Assembly: GCA_017436245.1 (NCBI GenBank) | Contig: JAFSDN010000044.1 | Coordinates: forward strand, 1 to 44,357 | Length of the DNA stretch: 44,357 nt | Direction of reading: 5' to 3' | DNA from: Clostridia bacterium | Lineage (GTDB): Bacteria; Bacillota; Clostridia; Monoglobales; Monoglobaceae | Shown here: positions 3,937 to 25,020 of the stretch, one piece after another | How the letters are laid out: the number at the start of each line of letters is the position of its first letter | Numbering within the stretch: the first letter of the stretch is position 1 | The notes under the pieces: model-generated | Told to the model about the DNA's origin: nothing | Database searches by the model: none | Seen by the model: only the letters and a program-made list of their open reading frames with translations | Made by a program: the position numbers and the translations under genes

Positions 3937-4019
3937 ACATTTTCCTCCATTCATAATGATGAATTCTGATTTATTAAAAACGCTATCCTCCCTTCATAGA
4001 ACTTTATTTATTTTAAATT

Positions 4020-5492
4020 TTATTTAATGACAAATGAATAAACATCCGCATCACTCATTGTGAACCTGAGCATAATTGTTTTTCCTTCCAGATTCTTAAG
4101 TTCTGCACCATCCTGAAATAAAACAGGTCTATCAAGTGCATCACCGAATATTTCATAGCTTGAAAAGCCGTCAAGCGGTCTTCCGCAATCATCCAGAACA
4201 TCGACAATGATATATCCCTTTGCCGAGGTTCTGAAGTTAAGCTCCATTTTTTCGCCCGTAAAGGTAAAAGGCTTTGTCACAATATTCTTTTCCTCATAGA
4301 CTGCACGAAATGATGCAAATCCGTCCAAACGTATGGTATACCGATACAGTCTTGCAGGATCTGTTCCACGATGACCTTCCTTCATAAACATTGAAATCTC
4401 ATTGGTTATATGAGGATATTCCCTTGGTGTTTCAATCATACCGTATGCAGGATAGCAATCACCGTATATCCAGTTGAAGGTGTGCTCTGTTTCAGGAGTG
4501 AACATCGCCTCATCAAACCTATGCCAGTCAAGACCGTTTCGGGAGCTCATAAACAATCCGTCGGTTAGTGCCCAGGCAAGACGGGGAAGAGTTTCAAAGT
4601 GCTCTTTTCTCTTTTTAATGTTTCCTTCGCACATCTGGTCGAAATTTTTCAGCCATCTGTGCTTCTCGGTGTATCTTGTTGGAAATCCAACAGCTATATG
4701 AGGAGCACGGTAATATGGAATTACATTATTTGTATACAGCTCATAATCATCCTTCTCACCGTATCGCAAGATAACAGGATTAGACCAGTTTTTGAAATCG
4801 TCCGATTCCATATACCTGATGTCACGCAAACCGCCTGCTGTTCCGGCGCCTGGGCCTTTGTGAAGACCCCGCACATACGCCACATACTTTTTCTTTCTTT
4901 TGTCCCAGTAAGCTACATTCAGAGAATCAAAAATTCCGCCATTGGGCACACTTCCATCGGTCATCATCCATGCTTTTTTGAAATGTATTCCATCAGGGCT
5001 GGTATAGCACCAAAGCTCACGGTTGTCAGGAAAAGGCTTTCCTTCACGCTCAAAATGCGAAAGTGCTTTAAATCTTTCCTCGGGCAAGCACGCAGGATTC
5101 TCATCCTTGAAGACAAAGAAATTGTCCAATTGATGCTCCTTGCTCTGTTTCAGAATAATATTGTTTTTAGTATTGCCTTCAAACTCACAAACGTTCAGTT
5201 CAGGACGATGCCAGGTGATTCCATCCTTGCTTTCCATAAAGCAAGCATTAAAAGGCTTTTCAACACCGTTATGTACTGCCATAATTCCAAGATAATACAT
5301 ACGATATCCTTCATCTGTTTCAACAATATTGAAATAGATGCTGGAATCACCCTCCCAAGGTTTGTCAAGGGTGCATACCAACTCACGTTTGATGGGTTTG
5401 TTCATGGTAAGTACAGCGGTTGTCTTGCTTTCGTCCACCAAATGATAGTCCCAGAACACCTCTCTGTTGTTTTTCTCAATATGCAAAGACAT
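4020..5492 (-). CDS. Cytoplasmic five-bladed beta-propeller glycosidase-like protein
   Basis: A 490-residue protein without signal peptide. Blade-like repeats read as in the GH43/GH32 superfamily: short aromatic strands such as YRMYYLG, KDGITWHRPEL, PDGIHFKKAW, ESDDFKNWSNP and RNGLDWHRF. A C-terminal beta-sandwich begins near residue 390 (EKNIVTKPFTFTGEKMELNF). This is the usual layout of five-bladed-propeller glycosidases, but I cannot assign a numbered family or a catalytic triad with confidence. The start has GGAGG 8 nt upstream, only 15 nt below the stop of the preceding SLH gene, so the two are co-transcribed. With GH4 it is one of two operon products expected to stay in the cytoplasm, presumably acting on imported oligosaccharides. 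An intracellular lectin-like or phosphorylase role is also possible. Confidence 0.65.
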   Translation of the reverse strand: MSLHIEKNNREVFWDYHLVDESKTTAVLTMNKPIKRELVCTLDKPWEGDSSIYFNIVETDEGYRMYYLGIMAVHNGVEKPFNACFMESKDGITWHRPELNVCEFEGNTKNNIILKQSKEHQLDNFFVFKDENPACLPEERFKALSHFEREGKPFPDNRELWCYTSPDGIHFKKAWMMTDGSVPNGGIFDSLNVAYWDKRKKKYVAYVRGLHKGPGAGTAGGLRDIRYMESDDFKNWSNPVILRYGEKDDYELYTNNVIPYYRAPHIAVGFPTRYTEKHRWLKNFDQMCEGNIKKRKEHFETLPRLAWALTDGLFMSSRNGLDWHRFDEAMFTPETEHTFNWIYGDCYPAYGMIETPREYPHITNEISMFMKEGHRGTDPARLYRYTIRLDGFASFRAVYEEKNIVTKPFTFTGEKMELNFRTSAKGYIIVDVLDDCGRPLDGFSSYEIFGDALDRPVLFQDGAELKNLEGKTIMLRFTMSDADVYSFVIK

Positions 5493-5507
5493 ACAATTTA
5501 CCTCCGC

Positions 5508-8500: not shown

Positions 8501-8858
8501 ACTTAACAACCTCGCCCGAAAAATCTGCCGTATTTGAAAGCATCAGCACAAAATCCTTACGGTAATGTTCGATGTCAGAATCCTTACGGGGAACAAGCTC
8601 AACGGATGTAATCTGGTGCTGAGCACCCAAGTCTACCTGCACCCACATTTCATCGCCGGGGTTTGCACGTGTCCACCAAGTATTATAATTACCGTCTGTC
8701 ACATAATAATCATATGCTCCATGCTGATATGAATAGGCGGTGGTTGCCTTTCCCAATGCAAGGTTTGGCAATTCTGCTTCTGATGCACTGACCGGGAACT
8801 GCATCAATCCTACGGTAATAGCACAAATCAAAACACATATAATTAACTTTTTCACCAT
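5508..8858 (-). CDS. S-layer-anchored protein: discoidin, N-terminal SLH, large beta-rich tail
   Basis: About 1116 residues. The signal peptide starts at the ATG at 8858 (MVKKLIICVLICAITVG), with AGGAGG 9 nt upstream. One discoidin module follows (about 30-165, with NLALGKATTAYS, DGNYNTWWTR and VQVDLGAQHQI). Then come two clear SLH motifs and one degenerate one at about 185-345 (LMTRATAVSLIVQ; YALGYITGDGNSRFRPNDYVTRADFLLMT). The remaining 770 residues are beta-rich, of unknown function, and end in a block with SDIGFGDIIRYQTLNG and YYYQFGELS. SLH motifs bind pyruvylated wall polymers, so the protein should sit on the cell wall with its C-terminal part exposed. The order discoidin-SLH-tail and much of the tail are shared with the protein at 35472-38744. 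It follows the 8878-12750 gene by 19 nt. Confidence 0.8.
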   Translation of the reverse strand: MVKKLIICVLICAITVGLMQFPVSASEAELPNLALGKATTAYSYQHGAYDYYVTDGNYNTWWTRANPGDEMWVQVDLGAQHQITSVELVPRKDSDIEHYRKDFVLMLSNTADFSGEVVKYEMDSAPVPYMENIIFETNGLPFRYVRIQKPKESGTNIAHVAEIEVYSDLSALKKEGLSFDDVEKGTELYGALSLLNAIGACPEESEFNQENLMTRATAVSLIVQVFNGEVTNGKSISTPVFLDVDEANQYFDTIQTAYALGYITGDGNSRFRPNDYVTRADFLLMTLRAMGYDTSMYAEPIYYIQAVIKHGKKLDLEENTTSGEYDDFLKRGDAYIIMANAITKPQAEIIYSAAGGYTAVGRERESLLESKYKMILHEGIVQENKKTSLIDEKKVANDTTKAVVGGKTFDDSENMLKDSLGKHVTVGTYEDNPNKIVVFWESPENSEIVIDASALDCTESDIRSNVIKAYDSSDKSRKYTLSEKYDVVYNGVVQLSYQPSDLLIENGDITLLDNNDDKRFDVVFVNEYTVHRLMSVFVQDERLSLTDSEGQRFTFDEENVTYYNYLGNVEKLKRLKANQVVKVYTSADGDVARIVECKKLENRVIEATSGESFTLSGVEYEFAYEKDNIPGMFSLGDTVTVFLDDSDRILWMIKAEEVLGQDWIIGFFQGHKQESGFDEPLYSRVFTQHNKWEVYPYAKKVKLDGVSVSVKELKNILTQNANGFYTLNFMCFKLNGNNEIAELDSLNRTEHEEDTSMNYSVENRVGREMYSKASGSFWLNHTQTAKIENKSPVFVLPVKDDGNSSTVNGDFWKGYAYDDYYQVYPEVVNVTTNLNIKNQDIDLYMQNPETGFFKFAAQRREYADLQGTYDVVTDPVAPSLLVEEVSTVYDQTDETVYIEISGYNVLTQQKATIYVEEDAILVEHGLYYQEFITAPTNGVATQYLGNEWQMDGILLAKTIAANPELESVLIKSASDIGFGDIIRYQTLNGRKTVTAVDRVFDFDENQLPEQKRASWLCVGSTNVATYIATYYYQFGELSKLTDTTYSFRTQYRDETSGEYSEYVYMKNMLTKNFLCDPYEKTIKNISDLSPYEAEAYRHMILNSGGTPRSAIVYLYK

Positions 8859-8877
8859 AAATTTCAACCTCCTTTCT

Positions 8878-11800
8878 CTAATCCGCATTCATTTGTTCGT
8901 ACAAGGTTAATGCTCTGTCAAATATAACCGCCGCCTCTGCACGGGTGGTATTGTTTTTTGGCATAAAGCAACCATCTTCATAGCCATTGATGATTCCTGC
9001 CGATGCCAGAACCGAGACTGCATATTGAGCATAAGTGTCAATACTTTCATAATCTTCAAAAAGTGTTACACGTTCACTGTTAAAGCCTCTGTTATCCAAA
9101 GCACGGTAAATCATTGTTATCAAATCCTGTCTGGTGACCTTTGTGCCCACACCGAATTCTTTAGCCGAAATACCCTTGACAATATTATGTCTGACTGCTG
9201 ACGATACATAAGGATAATACCATGCATCCTTTTCGCAGTCCTCAAATGTATTTTTCTCATCAGATATATCAAAACCAAATGTCAGAACAATCAATTTCAC
9301 AGCTTCTTCCCTTGTGAGGGTTGCTCCGGGATCAAATATACCTTCACCCTTACCGTTCAAGATTTCCTGTTCAGCCAAACGGTAAACCGAATCCTTTGCC
9401 CAGTCATATCCTTCAAGATCATCAAAACGAACATTTTCTTCGGAAACTTCAGAAACTGTGGGAACAACGGGCGCTACTTCAACCGGTTTTGCGGGATATC
9501 CTTTATAGCCGCCTCCACCGCCGCCGCTTCCGCCACCCGAAGGTGAATTATCCTTTTTAGTATTTTCAATATCGCTGATGATATCAGCAACTTCCTTGTT
9601 CATTCCCGATGCATAGCCTTTGACTGCTGTGGCAGAGTTCTTCAAATTCTTTGCAATCTGAAGATAAGTAACCTCAGTATTCAAGGTCTTTTCCGAAATT
9701 CCAAGCGCATCGGCATATTTTTCCAATGCCGTGATTATCTCTTTGCTGTTTCCTTCCTGAATCAATGACAATGCCACCGCTCTTTTCATAGCTTCAGCAA
9801 AATCTTCTGCAGAGTCAAGGTCAATATGCTTTTTCACCTCTGTCATCAGCTCTTCAAACTCTTCACTGTTATAATATTCAGAAAATACGTCCGGCAAAAA
9901 CTTTATATATGGGCTAATTACGGAATCATAATCCTTTTCAGACTTAACACAGCCTGCCACGACTGCCATACCCAAAATCGCCTCAACATCCTGAACCGAA
10001 TCAATCTCCGTAAGCTCAGAATCAAACAGTTCAGCATGGTCACGCATCATCACAAACATATTGCCGAATTCATCACCAATGAGCTGAATATCCGCCGCCG
10101 CTTGTGAAAAATAATCCTTATATTTATCAAATAATGAAGAAAAGTCTGTTGCTGAAACAGTCTTGAACTCCTGAACAAGCTCTGTGGTATCGATATTTTC
10201 CAGAATATTCACCTGTGAACTTCCGCAAAGCATTGAATTTTCGGAGCCTATCTTCATTTCATATTCTCCAAGGGCATCCGCATCCGAGAATGTAAACTCA
10301 AAGGAAAAGTCACCCTCATCACTGGGTTTCTTTGCTTCAGCATAACGGATTTCGTTTATATTGCCGCCATCAAAGCCTACACCCTGATCCATAACAAGAG
10401 CAAACACAGATTCCGCATCGGTTGAACCATTAAAAGTGTACGTCTGTGTATTTCTTGTAACCTCTTCTTCATACTCCGAAGCATCCCGATTTTCAAAGGT
10501 TATGATTTCCTTTACGCCTGTCAGGTCATTAACAACCCCGAGCAAATTCATATCCGAAAGATTGTCAATTACAAGCATCTGAATATTGTCAATATCCTCT
10601 GCCGCAACATTCTCAGCTTTGAAATCAACCGTGATATCCAAATTCCCTGTACCACCGTTTTCAAGAACATTTTCCGCACCACAACATCCAAGGTATTGAT
10701 TATTCTTATCAAAAGCACTGAAAATGAATGAACCTTCCGAACCTGACAGTACACTTCCTCTGACGTTCAGCTCACCGTCTTCCATAACGGCAACAAGATT
10801 GGCAAAGGTTAAAGATGCCACATTGACAGCTTTTGTATAAAAGTTCATTGTGTTTGCCGAGAATCTCACCTTGCCTGCATAAACCTCCTCAGCCAAAGCA
10901 CCCACATAACGGTATGCAGTGTCTCTGTACGCTTCATCTGTTTCATAAACAACCAATCCGGAATATTTCACACTTGGTCGTCCCGCAAGACCCTCCTGAT
11001 AAACCAGAACATCATAGTTCTGATAGCTTGGGTCGTTTGTGCCGATAAACATAAAGTTACTGCGGTTATCCATCTGCGTATCATCTGTTCCCACCGAATT
11101 CAGCGAATACAAAATATGAGAAATTGTTTGTGGTGTTCCCAGGTCAAACATCATATAAAGAGGAGAACCGTCACTTGAATGACTTACCAGGCTTGTGTTG
11201 TTCTCGCTTGCAAATGCACTCGCCGTCAATCCCGAAGGCGAACCTCCGGCACGCATTGCCTTGAGGTTATTGTTGATGTGTATAACGCGGTTATTCTCAC
11301 CAAATGTATCAGAGATATAATCCTGATGCACATACACATTCAGTTCTGCAATGCCAAGTGAACCGTCGCTTGATGCCTTTTCAACAGAAATATAGCGATA
11401 AGATGCACCGTCGGGTACCTCATAATAAGTTGTTTCATCGGAGGATGCCGGACCTCCCTGTGTGGCAAGTACTTCTTTTTCCACCAAATCGTTGTCATTT
11501 GAGCCGTAAACCGTGAATCCACCTGCACTTTCGAAATCCGCCGGAGGAAGATATCCGATGACGCTGATGGGATATTCCTGTCCCAAATCCACAACAAAAC
11601 CGTGCTCAGCAGCGGAATTTCCGCTCATCCAGTAGGTGTTGGGGTTTCCGTCCACTGCATTCTGGGGTGCATGGAGAGTTTTATAGGTTGAAGCAAAAGC
11701 CGCACAATCAACTGCCACATCAACCTTATCCTTCAGGCTCACAACCGTCTTGGCAGAAAAAATATTAAGAGAGTTTACTGCAAATCTCACCTTTCCGCCA

Positions 11801-12750
11801 ACCATCTTCTCCGCCATGATACCAACATATCTGTATTTGTTGCCCCTATACTGTTCGTCGGTTTCATAAAGCACCATACCCGAATAATTGCTGTCGGGAT
11901 TTCCTGCCAGACCTTCCTGAGTTGCAAGAATGTCATAATCAGAATAGTTTGCAGAATTTGAACCGATTACCTTGAAATCTGTACGGTGTCCCAAATCGTT
12001 TTCCGAAGGAATTTCAGCAACGGTGCTTGCTGAATAGGTCACATAGCCGATATTCTGTGACGAACCCAGATCAAACATAAAATAAATGGGGTTACCGTTG
12101 CTGGTATGGAATGCTTTTTGACCCACATCCGATTCACAACTGAAAGCCTTTGCCGATAGGCCTGATGGTGCTCCGCCGTAGCGGTTACCCTTCATATTGT
12201 TATTCACGTGATGATAGGTTGCCTCATGTTCAATTGCCTCGCCGTCGTTCTGAACATAAACATTGATTTCCGCAATTCCAAGTCTGCCTGCCGAAACAGA
12301 CTTTTCAACAACAACATAGCGGAAAGCTTCTGCTTCCTCAACTGTCAGATATGTTTTTTCAGTCAATGGAGCTGCCGAATCCCCCTGACTGTAAACAAGT
12401 GTCTTGTCAAGAAATTCATTGTCATTTGACAAATAAACTTCAAATCCTGCGGCTGCTTCATCGTCAGCCTGAGGAAGATAGCCAATTGTATCAATTGAAT
12501 ATTCCGAACCCAAATCCAGAACAAAACGATGTTCATTCATGGAATCTCCGCTCTTCCAAACAGTATCCGGGTCGCCATCAACAGCACTTTCAGCCCCAAA
12601 GCCGGGCTTCCATGTGGAGGCAAATGCCGCACAACTCTTTGCCGCATCCGTTAACCCGTTCAGTTCGGGAATATCTTGTGCCGCAACAGGAATCATCACC
12701 GTTTGCAGAATCAAAATAAAGCTAATAAAAAGCGTCAAAAGTTTCTTCAT
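8878..12750 (-). CDS. S-layer-anchored protein: four discoidin modules, helical domain, C-terminal SLH
   Basis: A 1290-residue exported protein with signal peptide MKKLLTLFISFILILQTVMI. Four discoidin-like modules (about 35-170, 180-330, 345-475 and 480-640) form two pairs; each pair is a VDGDPDTVW/VDGNPNTYW module followed by a GGAPSGL/GGSPSGL module. Beta segments, then a helix-rich domain of about 210 residues (about 860-1070) and a glycine linker (GGGSGGGGGG, near 1072) lead to three SLH motifs (1103-1290; FDPGATLTREEAVKL, KVTRQDLITMIYRAL, TTRAEAAVIFDRAL). The SLH block anchors it to the wall and the discoidin array should reach outward. Its ATG overlaps the preceding TAA by one base, indicating translational coupling. 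It stops with TAG. The same architecture recurs at 38760-42752. Confidence 0.85.
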   Translation of the reverse strand: MKKLLTLFISFILILQTVMIPVAAQDIPELNGLTDAAKSCAAFASTWKPGFGAESAVDGDPDTVWKSGDSMNEHRFVLDLGSEYSIDTIGYLPQADDEAAAGFEVYLSNDNEFLDKTLVYSQGDSAAPLTEKTYLTVEEAEAFRYVVVEKSVSAGRLGIAEINVYVQNDGEAIEHEATYHHVNNNMKGNRYGGAPSGLSAKAFSCESDVGQKAFHTSNGNPIYFMFDLGSSQNIGYVTYSASTVAEIPSENDLGHRTDFKVIGSNSANYSDYDILATQEGLAGNPDSNYSGMVLYETDEQYRGNKYRYVGIMAEKMVGGKVRFAVNSLNIFSAKTVVSLKDKVDVAVDCAAFASTYKTLHAPQNAVDGNPNTYWMSGNSAAEHGFVVDLGQEYPISVIGYLPPADFESAGGFTVYGSNDNDLVEKEVLATQGGPASSDETTYYEVPDGASYRYISVEKASSDGSLGIAELNVYVHQDYISDTFGENNRVIHINNNLKAMRAGGSPSGLTASAFASENNTSLVSHSSDGSPLYMMFDLGTPQTISHILYSLNSVGTDDTQMDNRSNFMFIGTNDPSYQNYDVLVYQEGLAGRPSVKYSGLVVYETDEAYRDTAYRYVGALAEEVYAGKVRFSANTMNFYTKAVNVASLTFANLVAVMEDGELNVRGSVLSGSEGSFIFSAFDKNNQYLGCCGAENVLENGGTGNLDITVDFKAENVAAEDIDNIQMLVIDNLSDMNLLGVVNDLTGVKEIITFENRDASEYEEEVTRNTQTYTFNGSTDAESVFALVMDQGVGFDGGNINEIRYAEAKKPSDEGDFSFEFTFSDADALGEYEMKIGSENSMLCGSSQVNILENIDTTELVQEFKTVSATDFSSLFDKYKDYFSQAAADIQLIGDEFGNMFVMMRDHAELFDSELTEIDSVQDVEAILGMAVVAGCVKSEKDYDSVISPYIKFLPDVFSEYYNSEEFEELMTEVKKHIDLDSAEDFAEAMKRAVALSLIQEGNSKEIITALEKYADALGISEKTLNTEVTYLQIAKNLKNSATAVKGYASGMNKEVADIISDIENTKKDNSPSGGGSGGGGGGYKGYPAKPVEVAPVVPTVSEVSEENVRFDDLEGYDWAKDSVYRLAEQEILNGKGEGIFDPGATLTREEAVKLIVLTFGFDISDEKNTFEDCEKDAWYYPYVSSAVRHNIVKGISAKEFGVGTKVTRQDLITMIYRALDNRGFNSERVTLFEDYESIDTYAQYAVSVLASAGIINGYEDGCFMPKNNTTRAEAAVIFDRALTLYEQMNAD

Positions 12751-15700
12751 TATTGCTCACCGCCTTTGATAATCAATTTCTGATGCTTGTTGAATACTCC
12801 AAAATAGCCTGTCGAACCAATTCCATCGTTTATCAGAGTATCCAGTATCTGCTTGCCGTTCAGACTGATTTTTACACTGTCAGTCGCTTTTTGGGCTATT
12901 ATGTTGATGTCAACACGGTTAAAATCACCGTATTTAAAGTCCGAACAATCCACCTCTGTGCATTTTGTTCTGACTCCTGCAACCACCTGATATAACTCTG
13001 CGTTCTGACCCTTGATGTTTAACTCATAATAAGTATTTTTTTCATACAGACCTTTTCTTTCCAAATCCTTGGTCTGACTGCTGAAGATAAAGCCAATACC
13101 CTCATTAACATCAGGTCGTTCCGCCCATACATCAAAGCTCACATTTTCCTTCATGGGAGTGGTATACATTGTGGCATCGAACCAGGGCTGCAATGTAATT
13201 TTTCCGTCATGTGCAACCAAATCTGTATTTGGATTTGCGGTATACCATTTTTCGGTTTCAGCCTTTATGGTTCCCATCTCTGCACCGTCAAAATCATCAT
13301 TTTTAATAGTTATTGTCCAGAAATCATATTCTCCCAACGGAACATTCAACACAGGAACCCTCACCGATATTTTATGTCCGGCTTCTTTCAAATCAGCCGC
13401 AACTCTTGCGTTGGCAGAAGTTTCAACAATTAAATCATCGAATGATAAATCTACCCCTGCAGGTAAAGTTATATTAACGATTTTCTGAGCTTTGTCAATT
13501 TCCGTCTCGCCGTCTTCCACATATACATAAGTAATGTCTGCGGCAAACTTTTGAGCCTCCAAAGCCTCATAGGCTTCTTCCAACTCCAGAACCGCCACAA
13601 ATTTGTCAGCCTTTGTCTGAGGATTGGTCGCCTTCACCGCTTCATATTTTTCTTTAAATTGCTGAATTGCTTTTTCAGGATATGAACCGAGTGCATTGCC
13701 AACCTTTGCTTCGCTAATCTTCTTGTCACACATCGCCAGCATTTCATCCCATTCAGGATGCTTCACCGAATCATATGCTCTTTCAATTTCGTCACGAAGA
13801 GCTGACTGTTCTTCAATTCTGCCGCCCGAAATGTCATCGGTGCTGTTGTTCGTGCCTCTTAATCTATCAATGTGGTATTGCAAGGTATACTTAAATTCAG
13901 GGGCATAAAGCCATGGCAAATCGCCAAATCTACCTGAATCCACAATATTGCTTGCCATACCGATAAAATACTGAACACGTCTTACCGCTTTTCCGTCGTA
14001 CACACGCAAGCATGGGCTTTGGGTGTATGGTCCCTTCATCAACGGATATTCATTCTGAGGAACTCTTTCACGGATATATTCAAATTCCTCGGTAAGTCCT
14101 GCATTCGCCATTATTCGTGCCGCTTCTTCGGGAGGATTTGTAATGTCAATGATGTGATCATTTTTAACCACATGGGTTTCTTCTTCACGAAGTGAGTTTG
14201 TCAGGTTGTCAAACACTCCCACATCTGACCATATTCCGTCAATGGTACAGTTATATGAATATGTTGCAAAATGAGCAGTTGTTGAGCTTTCAAGAACCAC
14301 ATTGTCCTTCCATGTGGTCTCTGTTGATCCCTCATCCATATACATAGCAAAGCCCTGATTTCCGTCAAGACGACTTATGTAGTTTCCAACAAGCTCATCC
14401 TTGGGTCCTGTTCCCAGGTGATATATTCCACCGCCGTCATTGGTATATCTCATAACATTGTGAATGCGATTGTAATTCACCTTGTTTCCTCCGCCTGTGG
14501 TCTGAGGATTTCTCCAGTTCCAACCGAAGGAAATTGCTGAATAGGGTGCATCATAAATTTCGTTATGTTCAATCACCATATTTTTTGTATAATACGCAAG
14601 AATTCCCAAGCCTTGGGTATTTACCATCGCAGGTCTCTGAATATAGTTGTTTGCAATGGTGATGTTTGTTGGCGCACCTCGCTGTCCTGAGGGACCGATG
14701 TCATAGCTATAAATCCAGATACCCGTAAGAGCAAAGGGTTCAAGCTTTGTTTTGCGAAGCATAACAAAACGATACTTGTTGTCTGTTCCGTCAATTGTTG
14801 TGATTACACTTGCAGGGTCAGTCACTGTTCCCAAAACTTCATATTCCTTAAAATCCTTGTCATTTGAAGCCAGAACCTCAAAGTTACTGCGTTCCACGCT
14901 ACTTACCTTGCCCGTCGACTGTCCGTCCTCAAATGAAAGTCTGATGCTGTCAATTGAATATTCACTATCCAAATCTATCTTAATCCACGGATAAATGCCT
15001 TTTTCAAGAACATTTTCGGTGCTTCTCCAACCCCAGCCGGGTTTCAGCGACTGCTGAACCGTTGCAGAATCCGATGTGTCAACATATGAACCGTAATCAC
15101 TGATTGCTCTCCATGAAATTCCAAGCATATCGCCATAGTAGTTTGAAGCCGTGTAGCCCTTTCGCCACATAATGTTTGTTGGTCCTTCAATAGCCTGTGG
15201 TTCAACAAAGTCCATCTGCATTGCATTACCCACGGTTATTGCTGATGAACCAAGGTCTGTGAACACATTTCCGATAATTTCGCAGTTGTGAACACCTTCG
15301 GGCAAGCAAAGAGCTGTTGATGCTTCACCAAAGAAACGGCATGAATAGAAATCAATCTCATCAGCCCACTTAACTTCAACGCCGCCTTTGATGGCTCTGC
15401 CCTCCGAACCTCCGCCCATACTGTACAGAACTTCTCCCTGTCCTCCAACATAGCCGTGTTCCATAGCACTGAAGCTTGAATGAGCAAAGCATATATCCTC
15501 AAATCTCACATTATGTATACGGTTGTCGTAGTCAACACCCGAAACCAGCATAAGCTGATCTTCCTGAGGACAAATAACCTCGGCTGTTGTCATATCTTCG
15601 CCGTCACGAGGCATATATGAAAGAATTTTTGTCTTTTTGTTAAAATAAAACTCTCCCGGCTCATCAAGAAGCTCATAGGCATTCTGAACCTCAAACTCAA

Positions 15701-16448
15701 TTGGATAACCGATGTCCGCTGTTCCGTGAGCACTGACGCCTGTGTCCTTCACGTTTCCTTCCCAGAAACCTTCTTCCATAAGAACAATAACATTGTCAGG
15801 ATTTTCAGGGTCGGGGATTATATCCTGCACATTTCCGTACTGTGATTTCCATGTAACCGCCCAATGAAGCTGAACATCCTCAGAGTTTTCAAGAAAACCC
15901 AGCTGTGACTTGCTCACATAAAAGCCTGTCCACATACCATCAGCATTCTTATAATTCCTTATACCTGAAATCTTGTCCTGGGTCTGTGCACGGATGCCCA
16001 TTGCATCATTGACATACAAATCTCTTGCAAAATCAAGATGCTCTGCTTTTGCGTGCCAGATACCATTTTCGCCCTTCTGCCAACCCGTGACAACACGTCC
16101 GCCCGAAATCACAGGCATATTCTCTCTGTCACCACGGTAAATAATGTCATATCCGTTGCTTCCCGAATCCTCAGCACGCAATCTAATTCTGTCATCAAGT
16201 TCATATCTGCCGGGAGCAATATTTACTATAATATTACCCGTCATATTTTTATTATGCTTCTGCACCTCCTGCACCGCACGCTCAACGGTTAAAAAAGGTG
16301 CCGACTGCGTCCCGGAATTCAGGTCGTTTCCGATTGGGCTTACATAAAGCTCCATTTGCACAGATGCCGTAACTTCTGCAACCACAGAAGAGGGCAGAGT
16401 CCCCACAAGCAGCAAAAGTGCAAGTACCATACTTTTAATTCTTGACAT
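12750..16448 (-). CDS. Secreted right-handed beta-helix protein, GH141-like, with inserted discoidin
   Basis: A 1232-residue exported protein; the signal peptide is MSRIKSMVLALLLLVGTLPSS and the start has GGGGAGG 5 nt upstream. After it come YVSPIGNDLNSGTQSAPFLT and SGGRVVTGW, the entry sequence typical of GH141-type parallel beta-helix glycosidases. The helix continues to about residue 780 with N-rich rungs (NCEIIGNVF, NITIANNYI, MVIEHNEIYDAPYS). Acidic segments NDGGGIY (near 673) and YMDEGS (near 703) are candidate catalytic positions. A discoidin-like domain (about 440-580) is inserted in the helix. Then follow a helical segment (about 870-975), an Ig-like strand region and a jelly-roll domain (about 1054-1228). 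Enzyme activity is inferred; polysaccharide lyase or pure binding remain possible. The first 965 residues nearly duplicate the protein at 18139-24072. Confidence 0.75.
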   Translation of the reverse strand: MSRIKSMVLALLLLVGTLPSSVVAEVTASVQMELYVSPIGNDLNSGTQSAPFLTVERAVQEVQKHNKNMTGNIIVNIAPGRYELDDRIRLRAEDSGSNGYDIIYRGDRENMPVISGGRVVTGWQKGENGIWHAKAEHLDFARDLYVNDAMGIRAQTQDKISGIRNYKNADGMWTGFYVSKSQLGFLENSEDVQLHWAVTWKSQYGNVQDIIPDPENPDNVIVLMEEGFWEGNVKDTGVSAHGTADIGYPIEFEVQNAYELLDEPGEFYFNKKTKILSYMPRDGEDMTTAEVICPQEDQLMLVSGVDYDNRIHNVRFEDICFAHSSFSAMEHGYVGGQGEVLYSMGGGSEGRAIKGGVEVKWADEIDFYSCRFFGEASTALCLPEGVHNCEIIGNVFTDLGSSAITVGNAMQMDFVEPQAIEGPTNIMWRKGYTASNYYGDMLGISWRAISDYGSYVDTSDSATVQQSLKPGWGWRSTENVLEKGIYPWIKIDLDSEYSIDSIRLSFEDGQSTGKVSSVERSNFEVLASNDKDFKEYEVLGTVTDPASVITTIDGTDNKYRFVMLRKTKLEPFALTGIWIYSYDIGPSGQRGAPTNITIANNYIQRPAMVNTQGLGILAYYTKNMVIEHNEIYDAPYSAISFGWNWRNPQTTGGGNKVNYNRIHNVMRYTNDGGGIYHLGTGPKDELVGNYISRLDGNQGFAMYMDEGSTETTWKDNVVLESSTTAHFATYSYNCTIDGIWSDVGVFDNLTNSLREEETHVVKNDHIIDITNPPEEAARIMANAGLTEEFEYIRERVPQNEYPLMKGPYTQSPCLRVYDGKAVRRVQYFIGMASNIVDSGRFGDLPWLYAPEFKYTLQYHIDRLRGTNNSTDDISGGRIEEQSALRDEIERAYDSVKHPEWDEMLAMCDKKISEAKVGNALGSYPEKAIQQFKEKYEAVKATNPQTKADKFVAVLELEEAYEALEAQKFAADITYVYVEDGETEIDKAQKIVNITLPAGVDLSFDDLIVETSANARVAADLKEAGHKISVRVPVLNVPLGEYDFWTITIKNDDFDGAEMGTIKAETEKWYTANPNTDLVAHDGKITLQPWFDATMYTTPMKENVSFDVWAERPDVNEGIGFIFSSQTKDLERKGLYEKNTYYELNIKGQNAELYQVVAGVRTKCTEVDCSDFKYGDFNRVDINIIAQKATDSVKISLNGKQILDTLINDGIGSTGYFGVFNKHQKLIIKGGEQ
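13510..16350 (-). repeat. Long repeat, copy 1 (matches about 21135-23970)
   Basis: This stretch encodes the beta-helix and helical segment and matches 21135-23970 at roughly nine of ten residues by eye, with many identical DNA runs. Similarity falls sharply at the low-coordinate edge, just after the shared ITYVYV codons. Same orientation, about 7.6 kb apart, so recombination between copies could delete the GH4 gene and its promoter. Confidence 0.8.
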
Positions 16449-16486: not shown

Positions 16487-17806
16487 TTAATAGAGTACAC
16501 GGTTACCTGCCGCATTATGTGCTTCAATCATTTCGTCACACATAGCAACAATATCGTCAATGGGAAGCTCAGCCGCAGTATGGGGATCAAGCATAGCCGC
16601 CTGATATACATGTTCTCTCTTCTTTGTTACAGCTGCTTCAATTGTCAGCAACTGAACGTTAACATTTGTCATATTCATTGCAGCAAGCTGGGTTGGCAGT
16701 TCACCCACATATGTTGGCTGAATGCCGTTTGCATCAGCAAGGCAAGGCACCTCAACGCAGGCATCCTTAACCAAATTGGGAATAAGACCGTGGTTTATAA
16801 CATTACCGCCAAAGGAATAGGGAACATTTGTCACCATGGCTTCCATAATACGTGACGGATATTCAATACTGCGTTCAGGATGCTCAATTCCCTTGCCGCT
16901 GAGGATTGCTTCCTTCTGATTTTGCCATCTGTCCAGAACCTCAAGACTGGTTCTTATGTAACGTTCAAGAGGAATATTATATTTCTCAATCAATTCAGGA
17001 TGATGTGATTTGATAAAGAAGGGGTTATATTCCGCATTGTGCCATGTGGATTCTGTACAATAATATCCAAAGCGTCTGATATATTCAAAACGAACCATAT
17101 TGCTGTGTATTTCGGTGGTATTCATCACTTCGGCTCTTTCTCTCAGCTTGGGATAAAGGTCGTTGCCATCCTTGTCACGGATTTCAAGAAGCCAAGCCAT
17201 ATGATTTATACCTGCAATTTTGCCTGTAACACCTTCGGGCAAATCCAGACGCATTGTTTCAAAAAGCTCACCGATGCAAGTCTACCAGCTATGGCAAAGT
17301 CCGATGTTTTTCATTCCGGTATATCTCTGCAAAAACCCTGTATTCATCGCCATGGGATTGGAATAGTTCAGGAACCATGCATCAGGACAAACCTCCTCCA
17401 CGTCTGCTGCAATGTCACGCAAAACGGGAATCATTCGAAGACCTCTGAAAATTCCGCCAATACCGAGAGTGTCGGCAATGGTCTGACGGATGCCGTATTT
17501 TTTTGGGATTTCAAAGTCCATTTTTGTTGCCTCAAATCCACCGATTGCAATTGCATTGATAATAAAATCAGAGCCCCTCAATGCTTCCTTGCGATTTTCA
17601 ACTCCAAGATAGCTCTTAATCTTTGCACGGTTATCATTGAGCTTCTGATTCATCCACTCCACCAGGATTCTGGATTCCTCCAGACGTTCAGGATTAATAT
17701 CGTACAAAGCAATTTCACAATCCTTCAAGGCAGGTGTCAGCATTGTGTCACCCAAAACATTTTTTACAAAGGCAGTGCTTCCTGCACCTACAAAAGTAAT
17801 TTTCAT
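16487..17806 (-). pseudogene. GH4 NAD-dependent glycosidase interrupted by one in-frame amber codon
   Basis: GH4 enzymes cleave alpha-glycosides (for example alpha-galactosides, alpha-galacturonides or alpha-glucosides) in the cytoplasm by an NAD- and metal-dependent redox mechanism. The start is the ATG at 17806, with AAGGAG about 9 nt upstream. The N-terminus has the NAD fold motif MKITFVGAGS. Later come IGGIFRGLRMIPVL, NYSNPMAMN (near 155), the metal-binding Cys-His of GLCHS (171-172) and GINHMAWLLE. Codon 175 (17284-17282) is TAG, and reading continues in the same frame (TCIGELFETM...) to TAA at 16489. The full length of 439 codons is normal for GH4. In relatives a glutamine commonly lies just after CHS, so a CAG to TAG change explains it. 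It is either a recent pseudogene, a sequencing error or a suppressed stop. It heads the operon, 38 nt before the beta-helix gene. Confidence 0.85.
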
Positions 17807-17837
17807 ATAAAACATCTCCTTTTTTTTCTTTACTATT

Positions 17838-17902
17838 ATTATACATTGTCGCGCTGCCTAATGAAATGTTATAATGTATCAATAATTTATCATTTTGTAA
17901 TA
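17838..17902 (-). promoter_or_regulatory. Regulated promoter of the GH4 operon with AraC-type operator
   Basis: A TATAAT box (17843-17838, minus) lies 32 nt before the GH4 ATG and has no good -35 box. The 38-bp element at 17865-17902 lies 21 nt upstream of that box. It matches 24139-24176 at all but two positions; its left part is aatgttataatgtat and its right part ataatttatcattttgta. A weak -35 with a conserved element just upstream is the usual layout of an activator-dependent promoter. The AraC protein at 24200 is the obvious candidate. Confidence 0.75.
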
Positions 17903-18094
17903 TAAAAAAGAATATATTTGAACATATTCCAATAATTACCGATTTTTGCAAACCCTATCAATAACGTGATTTCAGCGGATTTTCACTTTAAAATTTTTTC
18001 AAGCGCATACATTAGCTACGAACAAAAAGATGTCACTTTGTTTATTTTTTCACATAGTATCACAACCCCTTGTGTTAAACTCCGATACTCAATA
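17903..18094. other. AT-rich intergenic segment with a small cruciform
   Basis: Between the operator of the GH4 operon and the terminator of the 1977-residue gene no credible gene is seen. The only structure noticed is a nested hairpin at 18056-18089, where agtat and atact enclose cacaa-cccc-ttgtg. Its role is unknown. Confidence 0.4.
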
Positions 18095-18131
18095 CAAAAA
18101 AGAAGGGATGCATTTTTGCATAGCATCCCTT
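18095..18131 (-). terminator. Intrinsic terminator of the 1977-residue gene
   Basis: On the minus strand the stem aagggatgc (18131-18123) pairs with gcatccctt (18111-18103), followed by CTTTTTTG. It begins 8 nt after the stop codon at 18139 and separates this gene from the GH4 operon. Confidence 0.9.
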
Positions 18132-18138
18132 TTACAAA

Positions 18139-21100
18139 TTATTTCACCGTATAAATATCCATAATACTGTAACCAAGCTTCAACCGCCATCCTGCATTGA
18201 GATACGCAACGCTGTCTTTATATATCCCCACATAACGGTAGTTAGTGTCTTGATATTCTTCAGGTACGTGGTAAAGCACAAGTCCCGAATCCGCAGAACT
18301 GTCGTTACCGCCTGCAATGTCTTTCTGAGTGTATATAACAGCACCCTCCGACAAATCAGCATTATTCGAAAGAATCACCTTAAAGTTTCTTCGTCTTTCC
18401 AGATTAGGCTCGTTGGCGTTTTCCGCACAGTCAGCAAATGCAATTGTATCAATCTTTGCTCCGCCTGCTCCCAAATCATAGTACATATAAAGCACTTCTT
18501 TGGAATCCGCCGTCAGACCATTCCAGTAATGTTCATATGTTTGCAATGTGTTTTCACCGTTCAGTTGTCCCACCTGAGCTTTTGCAAGAGTGTCTGTTTC
18601 CGAACGCCACACCTTCGAGCCTCTGTTCCTGACTTCAAGATTTGCACGGCTTACACCTGCCTTATCACCATATGAATCAGTTGATACATTAACATTGATT
18701 TCCGCAATACCAAGCTTACCCATTCCGGATTCCTTTTCCACCAGAACATAGCGGAACGGCTTGGAACCCTCAAGTTTGTATGTGGAAGGATTTACTGTAT
18801 CTGCAACTATTGAACCCTGACCGTGCACCAACATCTTATCACTGAACTGTGAATCATTGGTGACATAGATTGAGTAATTTGATGCCGCCACAGCATCATT
18901 CATGGGCAAATATTCAATGGATTCAATGGGATATTCTGCGCCCAAATCAACCACAAAGTTATTCCGTTTTGCATCTGTTGCCGAACCGCTTTCATAATAT
19001 GTTGCAGGGTCGTTATCAACAGCACAAAAACCTCCGTGTCCTGCTGAGTTTGTAATTGTATACACCATGCTGTCCGATGCTGCATCCGTCAGCAAATTCC
19101 GGTTTTCGCAGTTGAAAATATATATACTGTTCATACGAAGCTGCAGCTTATCATCCGACGTATCCTGAGTGCCGTTATCATATTTCTTATCCTTATAAAA
19201 GCCTATATATTCATAAGCTTTGTTTCGGAACTGTTCAGGCACAGGATACAAAATCAAGCCCGAATATCCCTGTCCGGGAAGACCTGCAATTCCGTCCTGC
19301 ACCGTCAGAATGTCACAATCAGCTAAGTCGAACACCGGTTGTCCACCCGAAAGAACACATTCTCCCGATTCAAGACCGACAATTTTGAAATTGGATCTGA
19401 AATCAAACTGATTGGCACCTGTCCCCATGTCACCCGACTCGATTGCAATATGTGTAACATTTGAAGATTCCGAAAGCGGAACAACCAAGGATATACTGTC
19501 ATAAGCGGTTTGTGTAATTGCCTTTCCGCCCAAAACTGAATAAGCAAATGGTGCCGCAGTTTTGCCATTATGCGTACGGTATCCATATGCATTTTCGCTC
19601 AGATAATTCTGTTTTGTTGAAGATTCTCCACAAATACACGATGGCACATTAACCTTCAAATCCTTGATTGCCAAAGGGCCGTGACCAAAAGTCTTCTCCG
19701 CAACCACATAGCGGTATGATTTTCCATCGTTTACGGTGTATGTTGTGGCACAAGTTGTCGGAACAGCAATATTGGTTTTACGATGAATGTATGTCACATC
19801 TTCAGGCAAAAAATGCGGATTGTTTGACACATAAATATCAAACATTTTTGCCGCATCCTCGTTGGCAGGCAAGTATTCAATGGACTGAACAGGATATTCC
19901 TCTCCCAAATCAACAATAAAACGCTGTCTGTAACAGGACGCACCCGTGTCGGTTGATGCACCTTCGGTATATGCCTCCCAATAAGTTTCCTCATCATTAT
20001 CCACAGCCGCCTCCGGCAAATGCCCATCATTTGCAGAAGAAGCAAATACAGCCGATACTGCCGCCATATCCACGGAATCCGCAGATTTCGGAGCATCATT
20101 AGTTTGTTCCGTTATAATTGGCATTAATGAATCTTTCTCCCAAAGGAAAAACTTTGTTGTTTCAGTCTCGCCACTTTCATAAGAGCCTTCAGGGAAGCTT
20201 GCCCAAAGCTTTTGGGATACTCTCTTTGCATCAGTGGATTGAGCACCCAGCATTTTCCCACTGCTGTCATAGTCAGCCGCAACAAACAAATAGTCTTCAT
20301 TCTCCAAAAATTCACCCTTCACCGTTGCAACGTATCCACCGTTAACCGAATAAACATCCATCACTTTATCCACAGACGATATATCTTCAGAAATCAAATC
20401 CTTGATTTTCAGTTTCTGATGCTTGTTAAATACGCCAAAGTAACCCTGAGCACCAATACCGTTCTGCACCTCAACATTCAGAATCTCATTTCCATTCAAA
20501 TCAACCGTAACCATGTCTGTCATGTCTGCGGAGCTTACATTGATGTCAAAATGATTGAATTCGCCATAGGAAAAATCCAAATTTTCCACTGTGGCATAAT
20601 TGCTTCTTATTCCTGCCGACACCTTATACAGTTCAGCAACTTGGTTTTTAAAATTCAATTCATAATATGTATTTTTTTCATACAAACCGTTTCGCTCCAA
20701 ATCAGCCGTATGACTTCCGAAGATTAGTCCAATCCCATCAACCGCATCAGGTCGTTCTGCCCAAACATCAAAACTGATTTTACCAGTCATAGGTTTTCCA
20801 TACATATTTGCATCAAACCACGGTTGCACAGTTGTTATGCTGTTATATTGAGGAATCATCGTATTGGGATTACGTTTAACCCAAAAACCTTCCGATTCCT
20901 GCTCATACCTGACTGGCTCGGATGAAACATTAAGAGACCAAAAATCATATTTTCCCAAGGCTGTGTTCTTTACCGGAATGGTCACGGTGCTGCCGTATTT
21001 GATATTTGTAGGAACAGTTGTTATTTCTGCCCCGTCCGAAACCTCAAAATCTAATTCAAGCTGTGACAAATCCAAACCCAGAGGTAACGTCAGGAAAACT

Positions 21101-24072
21101 GTCTTGTTTGTTTTATCCATCTTCGTCTTGCCGTCTTTTACATACACATAAGTAATATCTGCGGCCAACTTTTGAGCTTCCAGAGCCTCATAGGCTTCTT
21201 CCAAATCCAGAACCGCCACAAATTTGTCGGCCTTTGTCTGAGGATTGGTTGCCTTTATGGCTTCATATTTTTCTTTAAATTGCTGGATTGCTTTTTCAGG
21301 ATATGAGCCGATGGCATTTCCAGCCTGTGCTTCACTGATCTTCTTGTCACACATCGTCAGCATTTCATCCCATTCAGGATGCTTCACCGAATCATATGCT
21401 CTTTCGATTTCGTCACGAAGGGCTGACTGTTCTTCAATTCTGCCGCCCGAAATGTCATCGGTACTGTTGCTTGTACTACTTAATCTATCAATATGGTATT
21501 GCAAGGTATACTTAAATTCAGGGGCATACAGCCATGGCAAATCGCCAAACCGTCCCGAATCCACAATATTGCTTGCCATTCCGATAAAATGCTGAACACG
21601 TCTTACCGCTTTTCCGTCGTATACACGCAAGCATGGGCTATGGGTATACGGACCTTTCATAAGCGGATATTCATTCTGAGGAACTCTTTCACGGATATAT
21701 TCAAATTCCTCGGTAAGTCCTGCATTCGCCATTATTCGCGCAGCTTCCTCAGGCGGATTTGTTGCATCAATTATATGACTGTTTTTAACAACGTGTGTTT
21801 CTTCTTCACGAAGTGAATTTGTCAGGTTATCAAACACCCCCACATCCGACCATACTCCGTCAATGGTACAGTTATACGAATATGTTGCAAAGTGAGCAGT
21901 TGTTGAGCTTTCAAGCACCACGTTATCCTTCCATGTGGTCTCTGTTGAACCGGCGTCCATATACATGGCAAAGCCCTGATTTCCGTCAATTCTGCTGATA
22001 TAGTTTCCAACAAGCTCATCCCCGGGCCCGTTGCCCAGATGATATATTCCGCCACCGTCATTGGTATATCTCATAACATTATGAATGCGATTATAATTCA
22101 CCTTGTTTCCTCCGCCTGTGGTCTGCGGTTCATTCCAGTTCCAACCAAAGGAAATTCCCGAATAAGGTGCATCGTAAATCTCATTATGTTCAATTACCAT
22201 ACCCTTTGTGTAATAGGCAAGTATTCCCAAACTCTGAGTATTTACCATTGCAGGTCTCTGAATGTAGTTGTTTGCAATGGTAATGTTTGTTGGTGCTCCT
22301 CGTTGTCCTGAGGGTTTCACATCATAACTATAAATCCAGATACCCGTAAGAGCAAAGGGTTCAAGCTTTGTTTTTCTGAGCATAACAAAGCGGTATTTGT
22401 TGTCTGTTCCGTTAATTGTGGTAATTATATTTGCAGGATTGGTAACAGTGCCAAGAACTTCATATTCCTCAAAATCCTTGTCATTTGACGCAAGCACCTC
22501 AAAGTTACTGCGTTCCGTATCGCTTACCTTTCCTGTCAACTGTCCGTTTTCAAAAGAAAGCCTGATGCTGTCAATTGAATATTCACTGTCAAGGTCAATC
22601 TTTATCCACGGAAAAATGCCCTTAGCAAGAACATTTTTCGTGCTACGCCAACCTCGTCCCGGAGTCAAAGACTGCTGAGCCGTGGCAGAATCGGACGTAT
22701 CAACGTATGAACCATAGTTACTTAATGCTCGCCATGATATTCCCAAAGGCTCACCGTACATATTGGACGCAGTATAGCCTTTTCGCCACATAATATTTGT
22801 GGGACCATCTGTTGTCGCAGGCTCCACAAAATCCATCTGCATTGCATTTCCAACGGTTATTGCCGATGAACCAAGGTCTGTGAACACATTTCCGATAATC
22901 TCACAGTTGTGAACGCCTTCGGGCAAGCAAAGTGCTGTTGATGTTTCACCAAAGAAACGGCAGGAATAAAAGTCCACTTCATCAGCCCACTTAACTTCAA
23001 CTCCGCCTTTGATGGCTCTGCCTTCAGAGCCGCCGCCCATGCTGTACATAACTTCGCCCTGACCGCCAACATAGCCGTGCTCCATGGCACTGAAGCTTGA
23101 ATGTGCAAAGCAAATATCCTCAAATCTTACGTTATGTATACGGTTGTCGTAGTCCACACCCGAAACCAGCATAAGCTGATCCTCCTGAGGACAAATCACC
23201 TCAGCTGTTGTCATATCTTCATCTGCTCTTGGCATATATGAAAGAATTTTTGTTTTTTTGTTAAAGTAAAATTCTCCCGGCTCATCAAGAAGCTCATAGG
23301 CATTATGAACCTCAAACTCAATTGCATAGCCAAAGTCTGCAGTGCCATGTGAGCTTTCCCCCGAAGAACTTACATTCTTTTCCCAAAAACCTTCTTCCAT
23401 AATCACTATAACATTATCCGCATTTTCAGGGTCGGGAATAATGTCCTGCACATTTCCGTACTGTGACTTCCATGTAACCGCCCAGTGAAGCTGAACATCC
23501 TCGGGATTTTCAAGAAATCCCAGCTGTGACTTGTTCACATAAAAGCCCGTCCATTTACCTTCTGCATCCTTGTAATTTCTTATACCCGAAATCTTGTTTT
23601 GAGTCTGAGCACGGACTCCCATTGCATCATCAACGTACAAATCTCTTGCAAATTTCAAATGCTCTGCCTTTGCGTGCCATATGCCATTTTCACCCTTCTG
23701 CCAGCCCGACACAATGCGTCCCCCCGAAATTACAGGCATATTGGCTCTGTCGCCTCGATAAATCACGTCATATCCGTTGCTTCCCGAATCCTCCGGGCGC
23801 AGTCTTATTCTGTCATCAAGCTCATATCTTCCGGAAGCAATATTAACTATAATATCACCCGTCATATTTTTATTGTGCTTCTGAACTTCCTGAACTGCAC
23901 GTTCCACAGTCAGGAACGGTGAATCTTCAGAGCCGTAATTCTGATCGTTCCCGTTCACGCTGACATAGAGTTCCATCTGTATACCGGTATTCTCGCTATC
24001 CGCAAGCACTTCTATCGGCAGCATACCAGTCATCATCAGAAACACAAGCAGTAAACTTTTCACTCTTGACAT
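18139..24072 (-). CDS. Giant secreted fusion: beta-helix (GH141-like) plus discoidin array
   Basis: A 1977-residue exported protein. The start is the ATG at 24072 (MSRVKSLLLVFLMMTGML), with AGGGG 8 nt upstream; it aligns with the start of the 1232-residue paralogue, so the upstream GTG at 24081 is not used. Residues 1 to about 1224 repeat the whole 12750-16448 protein: beta-helix with inserted discoidin, helical segment, Ig-like and jelly-roll domains ending FNKHQKLKIKD. The rest repeats the 664-3936 protein: short beta domain (about 1235-1330) and two discoidin pairs, ending GYSIMDIYTVK. So it is a head-to-tail fusion of two proteins that also exist separately in the next operon. No wall anchor is seen. 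It is transcribed alone from the promoter shared with araC and ends at a strong terminator. Hydrolase or lyase activity is inferred from the beta-helix only. Confidence 0.8.
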   Translation of the reverse strand: MSRVKSLLLVFLMMTGMLPIEVLADSENTGIQMELYVSVNGNDQNYGSEDSPFLTVERAVQEVQKHNKNMTGDIIVNIASGRYELDDRIRLRPEDSGSNGYDVIYRGDRANMPVISGGRIVSGWQKGENGIWHAKAEHLKFARDLYVDDAMGVRAQTQNKISGIRNYKDAEGKWTGFYVNKSQLGFLENPEDVQLHWAVTWKSQYGNVQDIIPDPENADNVIVIMEEGFWEKNVSSSGESSHGTADFGYAIEFEVHNAYELLDEPGEFYFNKKTKILSYMPRADEDMTTAEVICPQEDQLMLVSGVDYDNRIHNVRFEDICFAHSSFSAMEHGYVGGQGEVMYSMGGGSEGRAIKGGVEVKWADEVDFYSCRFFGETSTALCLPEGVHNCEIIGNVFTDLGSSAITVGNAMQMDFVEPATTDGPTNIMWRKGYTASNMYGEPLGISWRALSNYGSYVDTSDSATAQQSLTPGRGWRSTKNVLAKGIFPWIKIDLDSEYSIDSIRLSFENGQLTGKVSDTERSNFEVLASNDKDFEEYEVLGTVTNPANIITTINGTDNKYRFVMLRKTKLEPFALTGIWIYSYDVKPSGQRGAPTNITIANNYIQRPAMVNTQSLGILAYYTKGMVIEHNEIYDAPYSGISFGWNWNEPQTTGGGNKVNYNRIHNVMRYTNDGGGIYHLGNGPGDELVGNYISRIDGNQGFAMYMDAGSTETTWKDNVVLESSTTAHFATYSYNCTIDGVWSDVGVFDNLTNSLREEETHVVKNSHIIDATNPPEEAARIMANAGLTEEFEYIRERVPQNEYPLMKGPYTHSPCLRVYDGKAVRRVQHFIGMASNIVDSGRFGDLPWLYAPEFKYTLQYHIDRLSSTSNSTDDISGGRIEEQSALRDEIERAYDSVKHPEWDEMLTMCDKKISEAQAGNAIGSYPEKAIQQFKEKYEAIKATNPQTKADKFVAVLDLEEAYEALEAQKLAADITYVYVKDGKTKMDKTNKTVFLTLPLGLDLSQLELDFEVSDGAEITTVPTNIKYGSTVTIPVKNTALGKYDFWSLNVSSEPVRYEQESEGFWVKRNPNTMIPQYNSITTVQPWFDANMYGKPMTGKISFDVWAERPDAVDGIGLIFGSHTADLERNGLYEKNTYYELNFKNQVAELYKVSAGIRSNYATVENLDFSYGEFNHFDINVSSADMTDMVTVDLNGNEILNVEVQNGIGAQGYFGVFNKHQKLKIKDLISEDISSVDKVMDVYSVNGGYVATVKGEFLENEDYLFVAADYDSSGKMLGAQSTDAKRVSQKLWASFPEGSYESGETETTKFFLWEKDSLMPIITEQTNDAPKSADSVDMAAVSAVFASSANDGHLPEAAVDNDEETYWEAYTEGASTDTGASCYRQRFIVDLGEEYPVQSIEYLPANEDAAKMFDIYVSNNPHFLPEDVTYIHRKTNIAVPTTCATTYTVNDGKSYRYVVAEKTFGHGPLAIKDLKVNVPSCICGESSTKQNYLSENAYGYRTHNGKTAAPFAYSVLGGKAITQTAYDSISLVVPLSESSNVTHIAIESGDMGTGANQFDFRSNFKIVGLESGECVLSGGQPVFDLADCDILTVQDGIAGLPGQGYSGLILYPVPEQFRNKAYEYIGFYKDKKYDNGTQDTSDDKLQLRMNSIYIFNCENRNLLTDAASDSMVYTITNSAGHGGFCAVDNDPATYYESGSATDAKRNNFVVDLGAEYPIESIEYLPMNDAVAASNYSIYVTNDSQFSDKMLVHGQGSIVADTVNPSTYKLEGSKPFRYVLVEKESGMGKLGIAEINVNVSTDSYGDKAGVSRANLEVRNRGSKVWRSETDTLAKAQVGQLNGENTLQTYEHYWNGLTADSKEVLYMYYDLGAGGAKIDTIAFADCAENANEPNLERRRNFKVILSNNADLSEGAVIYTQKDIAGGNDSSADSGLVLYHVPEEYQDTNYRYVGIYKDSVAYLNAGWRLKLGYSIMDIYTVK
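21135..23970 (-). repeat. Long repeat, copy 2 (matches about 13510-16350)
   Basis: Second copy of the 2.8-kb direct repeat, inside the 1977-residue gene. Beyond its low-coordinate end the two proteins stay homologous but only at about half identity by eye, so the high-identity block has a sharp edge that does not follow a domain boundary exactly. Confidence 0.8.
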
Positions 24073-24111
24073 AATACACACCCCTTTGGTATTTTATAAT
24101 ATTCTGTTTTT

Positions 24112-24176
24112 ATTATATATTGACAATATGGTTAACACAATGTTATAATGTATTCATAATTTATCATTTTGTAATA
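24112..24176. promoter_or_regulatory. Divergent promoter region with shared AraC-type operator
   Basis: Minus strand: TATAAT at 24117-24112 drives the 1977-residue gene and lies 21 nt from the operator at 24139-24176, the same distance as in the GH4 promoter. Plus strand: TTGACA (24120-24125) and TATAAT (24144-24149), 18 nt apart, form a near-consensus promoter for araC. The araC -10 box lies inside the operator. A protein bound there could activate the minus-strand gene and repress its own. Confidence 0.75.
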
Positions 24177-24199
24177 CAAGAAAGGAATATTTTTTTCTT

Positions 24200-24973
24200 A
24201 TGGCAAAAAATATTATTATCCCCGACGAAAACCTAAACTCCCTGAATCCAGTGCGTTTTGGCTATGAAGCCTGCAAAAAATCCCATTCATACGGGCCAGC
24301 AATGCGCACGCATTGGCTTATTCATTTTGTTGTATCGGGATTTGGTTTTTTCAGAATTGAAGACCGGGAATATCACGTCTCTCCGGGTGAAATGTTCGTT
24401 ATTCCTTCCTTTGTTGAAGCATATTATGAAGCAGATTCAGAAAATCCCTGGAGTTACATCTGGATTGGATTTACCACCCCCGACAAACCACCAATTGCCC
24501 TTGATGATGTTATTTGTTGTCCGGAAGCTCTAAATATTTTCAATGCAATGAAGACATGCGAAGTCATGAACACGGGCATAAATGCGTTTTTAAGTGCAAG
24601 ACTCTGGGACTTGTTTTATTTGCTGATAAGCAAATCCGCGCCACAGCCCAATTACGTTGAAAGGGCATTAGACTATATTCACTCAGAATATACGAAGGAC
24701 ATCACCGTTGACCAGATTGCGCATTTTTTAAATATCAGCCGAGTATATCTCTCAACCATTTTTAAAGAAAAAATGGGCATTTCCCCCAAGCAGTATCTGC
24801 TGAATTACAGAATGAATATCGCTACAATTATGATGTCAAACCATCCGACAAGTATATCCATAATCGCCAATTCCGTAGGCTACAGTGATATTTATAATTT
24901 TTCAAAAATGTTCAAGCGTCATTATGGTGTATCACCAAAGAAATATATCGAACAACACAAAAAAAACAATTAA
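24200..24973 (+). CDS. AraC-family transcriptional regulator with cupin sensor domain
   Basis: A 257-residue regulator, the only plus-strand gene here. Residues about 20-100 form an AraC-type cupin sugar-sensing domain (HWLIHFVVSGFGFFRI, YHVSPGEMFVIPS). Residues about 160-255 hold two helix-turn-helix motifs (ITVDQIAHFLNISRVYLSTI and ISIIANSVGYSDIYNFSKMF), ending in the signature FKRHYGVSPKKYI. An AAAGGAA precedes the ATG by about 12 nt. It is divergent from the 1977-residue gene; the 38-bp element in their shared promoter reappears before the GH4 operon, so it probably activates both transcripts in response to a released sugar and controls itself. The ligand cannot be read from the sequence. 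Confidence 0.93.
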   Translation: MAKNIIIPDENLNSLNPVRFGYEACKKSHSYGPAMRTHWLIHFVVSGFGFFRIEDREYHVSPGEMFVIPSFVEAYYEADSENPWSYIWIGFTTPDKPPIALDDVICCPEALNIFNAMKTCEVMNTGINAFLSARLWDLFYLLISKSAPQPNYVERALDYIHSEYTKDITVDQIAHFLNISRVYLSTIFKEKMGISPKQYLLNYRMNIATIMMSNHPTSISIIANSVGYSDIYNFSKMFKRHYGVSPKKYIEQHKKNN

Positions 24974-25020
24974 AAAAATCAGCCTGCAAAAGCAATGTTT
25001 TGCAAGCTGATTTTTTATTT
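24974..25020 (+). terminator. Intrinsic terminator of araC
   Basis: Immediately after the TAA, aatcagc-c-tgcaaaa pairs with ttttgca-a-gctgatt around a 6-nt loop, followed by a T-rich run. A-runs on the other side allow use on both strands. Confidence 0.9.

Follow-up and report, generated by a model that had tools for sequence, protein, structure and literature searches.

In Escherichia coli, the AraC-family regulator MelR is encoded divergently from the GH4 alpha-galactosidase MelA, with tandem MelR sites in the shared intergenic region of the MelR-melAB system. Equally, the araI1-araI2 sites of the E. coli AraC protein at PBAD are direct half-sites with a 21-bp spacing. It is through araI1 and araI2 that AraC activates PBAD (PMC4760080), an AraC/XylS-type regulator, RafR, controls the alpha-galactosidase operon of the raf/aga system in Streptococcus pneumoniae (PMC6336424), and for the AraC-type activator CphR of Rhodococcus sp. 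YH-5B two imperfect direct repeats have been mapped to -35 to -69 in the cphR-cphA2 intergenic region (PMC6205950). A literature search found no paper on the AraC regulator family considered here.

The locus lies in a contig of 44,357 nucleotides (JAFSDN010000044.1, hereafter the window) of a Clostridia bacterium of the family Monoglobaceae. It carries two copies, A and B, of a 38-bp element which is very probably, as judged from sequence comparison, the operator of the adjacent AraC-family protein encoded at 24200-24973. The features are, by position:

664..16448, minus strand: the other five genes of the GH4 operon (GH141-like, SLH and F5/8 type C proteins)
16487..17815, minus strand: GH4 alpha-galactosidase gene, first of the six operon genes, with an in-frame TAG at 17282-17284
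17838..17843, minus strand: -10 box TATAAT of the GH4 operon promoter, its position conserved in relatives; predicted start near 17831
17846..17875, plus strand: vestigial promoter in copy A, TTGTCG-18-TATAAT, no gene downstream
17865..17902, minus strand: predicted operator copy A, upstream of the GH4 operon
17865-17881 and 17886-17902: half-site 1 (promoter-proximal) and half-site 2 of copy A, structure taken from orthologues
18139..24072, minus strand: gene of a giant secreted protein with a GH141-like N-terminal region and F5/8 type C domains
24112..24117, minus strand: -10 box TATAAT of the giant gene promoter; predicted start near 24105
24120..24149, plus strand: araC promoter TTGACA-18-TATAAT, conserved in orthologues
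24139..24176, minus strand: predicted operator copy B, between the giant gene and araC
24139-24155 and 24160-24176: half-site 1 and half-site 2 of copy B, structure taken from orthologues
24200..24973, plus strand: AraC-family regulator of 257 aa (Pfam HTH_AraC, HTH_18, AraC_binding), probable ligand of both operators

The regulator belongs to the AraC/XylS family by its C-terminal double helix-turn-helix, with matches to PF00165 in two stretches (E=8e-21), PF12833 (E=2e-19) and PF02311 (AraC_binding, E=1e-15), and its N-terminal region is a cupin-like ligand-binding domain. It is no orthologue of MelR: the NCBIfam model of MelR scores 58 bits against a cut-off of 253 and aligns to the helix-turn-helix part only. 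The NCBIfam model of AraC covers only residues 148-255, again the helix-turn-helix part. The GH4 product matches the NCBIfam alpha-galactosidase model PRK15076, and an intact GH4 adjoining an orthologous regulator scores above the cut-off of this model. Five further tightly packed minus-strand open reading frames follow the GH4 gene down to 664; two of their products (8878-12750 and 5508-8888) combine S-layer homology and F5/8 type C domains and may thus be enzymes anchored at the cell surface. For the giant protein, translation likely starts at 24072, with an ATG that follows AGGGG, and not with the GTG at 24081; its GH141-like N-terminal region (PDB match BT_1002, E=3e-36) is followed by the F5/8 type C domains. 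The TAG in the GH4 gene (17282-17284, minus strand) stands where every aligned homologue has a glutamine (GLCHSW*TC versus GLCHS[VW]Q) and reflects a nonsense mutation or else an error of assembly; recoding as glutamine is unlikely, as the genes nearby form long frames free of stops under translation table 11.

Copies A and B are identical at 36 of 38 positions, the mismatches being positions 16-17, and 100 dinucleotide shuffles of the window contained no match to the element with up to three mismatches. Each copy is separated by exactly 21 nt from a minus-strand TATAAT, for which the best -35, tested at 16-18 nt spacing, matches the consensus at 3/6 positions in both cases. On the plus strand, copy B contributes the -10 (24144-24149, inside half-site 1) of a promoter that reads into araC with a 12/12 consensus match. 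The preliminary description had reported these two near-identical copies, their 21-nt distance to TATAAT boxes with poor -35 elements, the overlap of the second copy with the divergent araC -10 and the layout of a six-gene GH4 operon, all of which hold. It overlooked that copy A also covers a plus-strand TATAAT (17870-17875), with the weaker -35 TTGTCG; in both copies the plus-strand TATAAT is preceded by TG. No clear terminator was found between the giant gene and copy A, and read-through from the copy B promoter into the GH4 operon is possible. Equally, positions 17000-25200 gave no Rfam match to a structured RNA or riboswitch, and tblastn of 17903-18138 gave no significant match to a decayed araC beyond copy A.

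Orthologous regulators, searched for in 100 relatives and by a scan of GTDB genomes, were found mostly in metagenome-assembled genomes of gut Clostridia, and a near set of 33 non-redundant loci encodes AraC proteins 45-66% identical to the window regulator. Upstream of the orthologous araC genes a footprint is conserved, ATTATA-TTGACA-n17/18-TATAATGT-n7-ATTTGTCATTTTGTTGT, and in 29 of the 33 near loci a GH4 alpha-galactosidase gene lies divergent from araC across this same intergenic footprint. Other divergent genes occur opposite a retained block, namely galT-galK in L056, a GH31 gene in L086 and a dockerin-bearing GH20 gene in L072; in L056 (3140-6234), the orthologous regulator and the same operator face galT and galK. 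By eye, the same type of operator is also seen in L068 (5358-6780) between an AraC orthologue and a divergent short AraC-like helix-turn-helix protein. As a GH4 gene matching PRK15076 and an orthologue opposite galT-galK both point in this direction, galactose or an alpha-galactoside is the likely inducer.

The conserved block resolves into two direct-repeat half-sites, 17 bp + 4 bp + 17 bp, which are 21 bp apart from centre to centre. In a column permutation of the ungapped near-set alignment, the internal repeat was strongest at offset 21 among offsets 8-26 (p=0.0026), and offset 21 was again best in a distant set (p=0.016), both p-values being approximate as the sequences are AT-rich and related. 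Half-site 2 served as the anchor of the alignment. Half-site 2 of the near set reads ATTTGTCATTTTGTTGT, and the distant clade has ATTGATTTTTGTTG...TTTGTTATAATGTTG. A similar half-site pair was noted by eye at the more distant AraC/GH4 pairs of L034 (about 13540-13660, half-sites 21 bp apart) and L042 (about 10760-10900), where the araC -10 sits in half-site 2 and not in half-site 1.

If the minus-strand -10 box is taken as -12 to -7, the element spans about -34 to -71, close to the -35 to -69 of the CphR repeats, although the CphR half-site sequence is unrelated and the CphR pathway concerns 4-chlorophenol. Like araI1-araI2, the element consists of two direct half-sites 21 bp apart adjoining a promoter that would be activated; unlike in the E. 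coli AraC system, a distal looping site was not found for the window operator. Direct repeats about 21 bp apart, with a proximal half-site adjoining or overlapping the -35 of a promoter that lacks a good one, are the features expected of an AraC-type activator operator, as which the element may be classed. In 33/33 loci of the near set and 14/15 of the distant set, a constant distance (+/-1) separates the best minus-strand -10 from the operator. The minus-strand -35 is poor (at most 3/6) in 20 of the 33 near loci and reaches 4/6 or 5/6 in the remaining 13, such that activator dependence of the minus promoter appears not equally clear across all of them.

The divergent araC promoter, the -35 of which matches at 6/6 positions in 22 of the 33 near loci, behaves differently. 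Its -10 is located at alignment column 48-49 in the near set (28 loci) and at column 70 in the distant set (9/15), a shift of one half-site (21 bp). Since the GH4 -10 remains at a fixed distance from the operator while the araC -10 moves by 21 bp, it is an evenly balanced proposition that an operator half-site doubles as a core promoter hexamer of araC and that the araC promoter has slid exactly one half-site along the operator. If true, a self-limiting araC promoter would have been re-registered on its own operator with the target promoter undisturbed.

The window differs from the common arrangement in that the GH4/araC intergenic region is present twice, with the giant gene between GH4 and araC. 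The first ~1225 residues of the giant protein are 81% identical to the product of operon gene 2 (12750-16448, minus strand) and residues 1238-1977 are 63% identical to that of operon gene 6 (664-3954, minus strand); the giant gene therefore seems to have arisen by fusion of an entire gene 2 duplicate with the larger part of a gene 6 duplicate. Copies A and B go back to a single ancestral intergenic region, with one operator between GH4 and araC, which was duplicated along with operon genes, the operator being kept on each side. The simplest history may be a duplication of the operon with its promoter, followed by deletion of the stretch between, including the second GH4. The nearest relative of the window GH4 is encoded elsewhere in this genome (C78, 74%), and the clade also includes, on a long branch, the GH4 of L052, which has a near-type regulator; a near-type operator and this GH4 clade therefore exist together outside the window.

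The 81% protein identity shows that the duplication is real and not ancient, and the likeness of A and B might then reflect recent duplication or gene conversion with no selection on the element. This is extremely improbable, as the operator is 95% identical between the copies, compared with 44% in the two flanks of 60 and 62 nt combined (Fisher p=5e-9) and 61.5% at fourfold-degenerate positions of the duplicated gene linked to it (Fisher p=1e-5), and a conversion restricted to exactly the operator would be unlikely. A related proposal, according to which only the araC core promoter and its 5' leader were copied and copy A is a dead relic without any role as GH4 operator, accounts for the retention of the TG-preceded plus-strand TATAAT in both copies and for the very good conservation of the araC -35 and -10 among orthologues, yet is very unlikely: copy A has no araC downstream and its plus-strand -35 has decayed while its 38 bp were kept, half-site 2, which lies downstream of the plus-strand -10, is likewise conserved in copy A, and the distance to the GH4 -10 is constant also in the distant clade, despite a different location of the araC -10 there. 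As the whole operator of copy A was kept with an araC-type -35 off consensus, selection there probably acts on something other than an araC promoter.

The genome was also scanned for further sites. In 1.81 Mb (120 contigs, 74% complete) both copies were recovered and no further one; half-site matches with two mismatches on contigs C45, C68, C106 and C109 stand without a second half-site (3-5/17). Within the family, scanning 38 genomes for the block gave nine matches, of which eight either are the window copies or lie between araC and GH4 and one (G031), with three mismatches, is unassigned, and the window operator as a general regulon motif of the family was rejected, the block being almost confined to araC-adjacent loci. 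Of the AraC regulon proposed earlier, the two sites stand, but they arose by local duplication and do not belong to a dispersed set. Contig C37 of the same genome encodes an AraC paralogue, 59% identical, that could cross-bind A and B; it is paired with a divergent GH4 gene and an operator related to theirs. It is highly improbable that A, B or both are controlled chiefly by this paralogue in place of the window regulator, since the operator of the paralogue is identical to A and B at only 26-27 of 38 positions (11-12 differ) and the window regulator directly adjoins copy B.

Conservation of the block at orthologous araC/GH4 loci together with half-sites at an activator position makes control of both the giant gene and the GH4 operon by the adjacent regulator the best reading, in support of the earlier claim of one regulator for both minus-strand units. 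From the geometry we infer activation of both units and autorepression of araC. In the proposed mechanism, an inducer, probably galactose or an alpha-galactoside, would bring an AraC dimer onto the two half-sites, which lie at about -34 to -71 in the minus-strand promoters; there the dimer would substitute for the missing -35, switching on the GH4 operon from copy A and, probably, the giant GH141-like/CBM32 gene from copy B. As the -10 of the strong araC promoter falls within half-site 1, occupancy of copy B would at the same time limit araC transcription.

Compared with the described systems, the circuit would be MelR/melAB-like by function and no new class. The near loci share with MelR-melAB an AraC-family regulator divergent from a GH4 alpha-galactosidase (29/33) with tandem sites between, whereas in the window the giant gene now separates the two, the operator overlaps the -10 of the regulator itself and the operon encodes secreted GH141-like, CBM32 and SLH proteins. 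With RafR the locus has in common an AraC/XylS-type regulator and an alpha-galactosidase operon in a Firmicute; raf/aga, however, includes an ABC transporter and sucrose phosphorylase in the place of secreted GH141-like and CBM32 proteins.

For a widespread AraC regulator family of gut Clostridia, a specific operator and a likely inducer class can now be proposed. Furthermore, the window suggests how a sugar operon can grow, in that a segment of an operon was copied into the operon's own divergent promoter and then fused into a giant surface enzyme, which apparently was kept under the same regulator because the operator was retained on each side.
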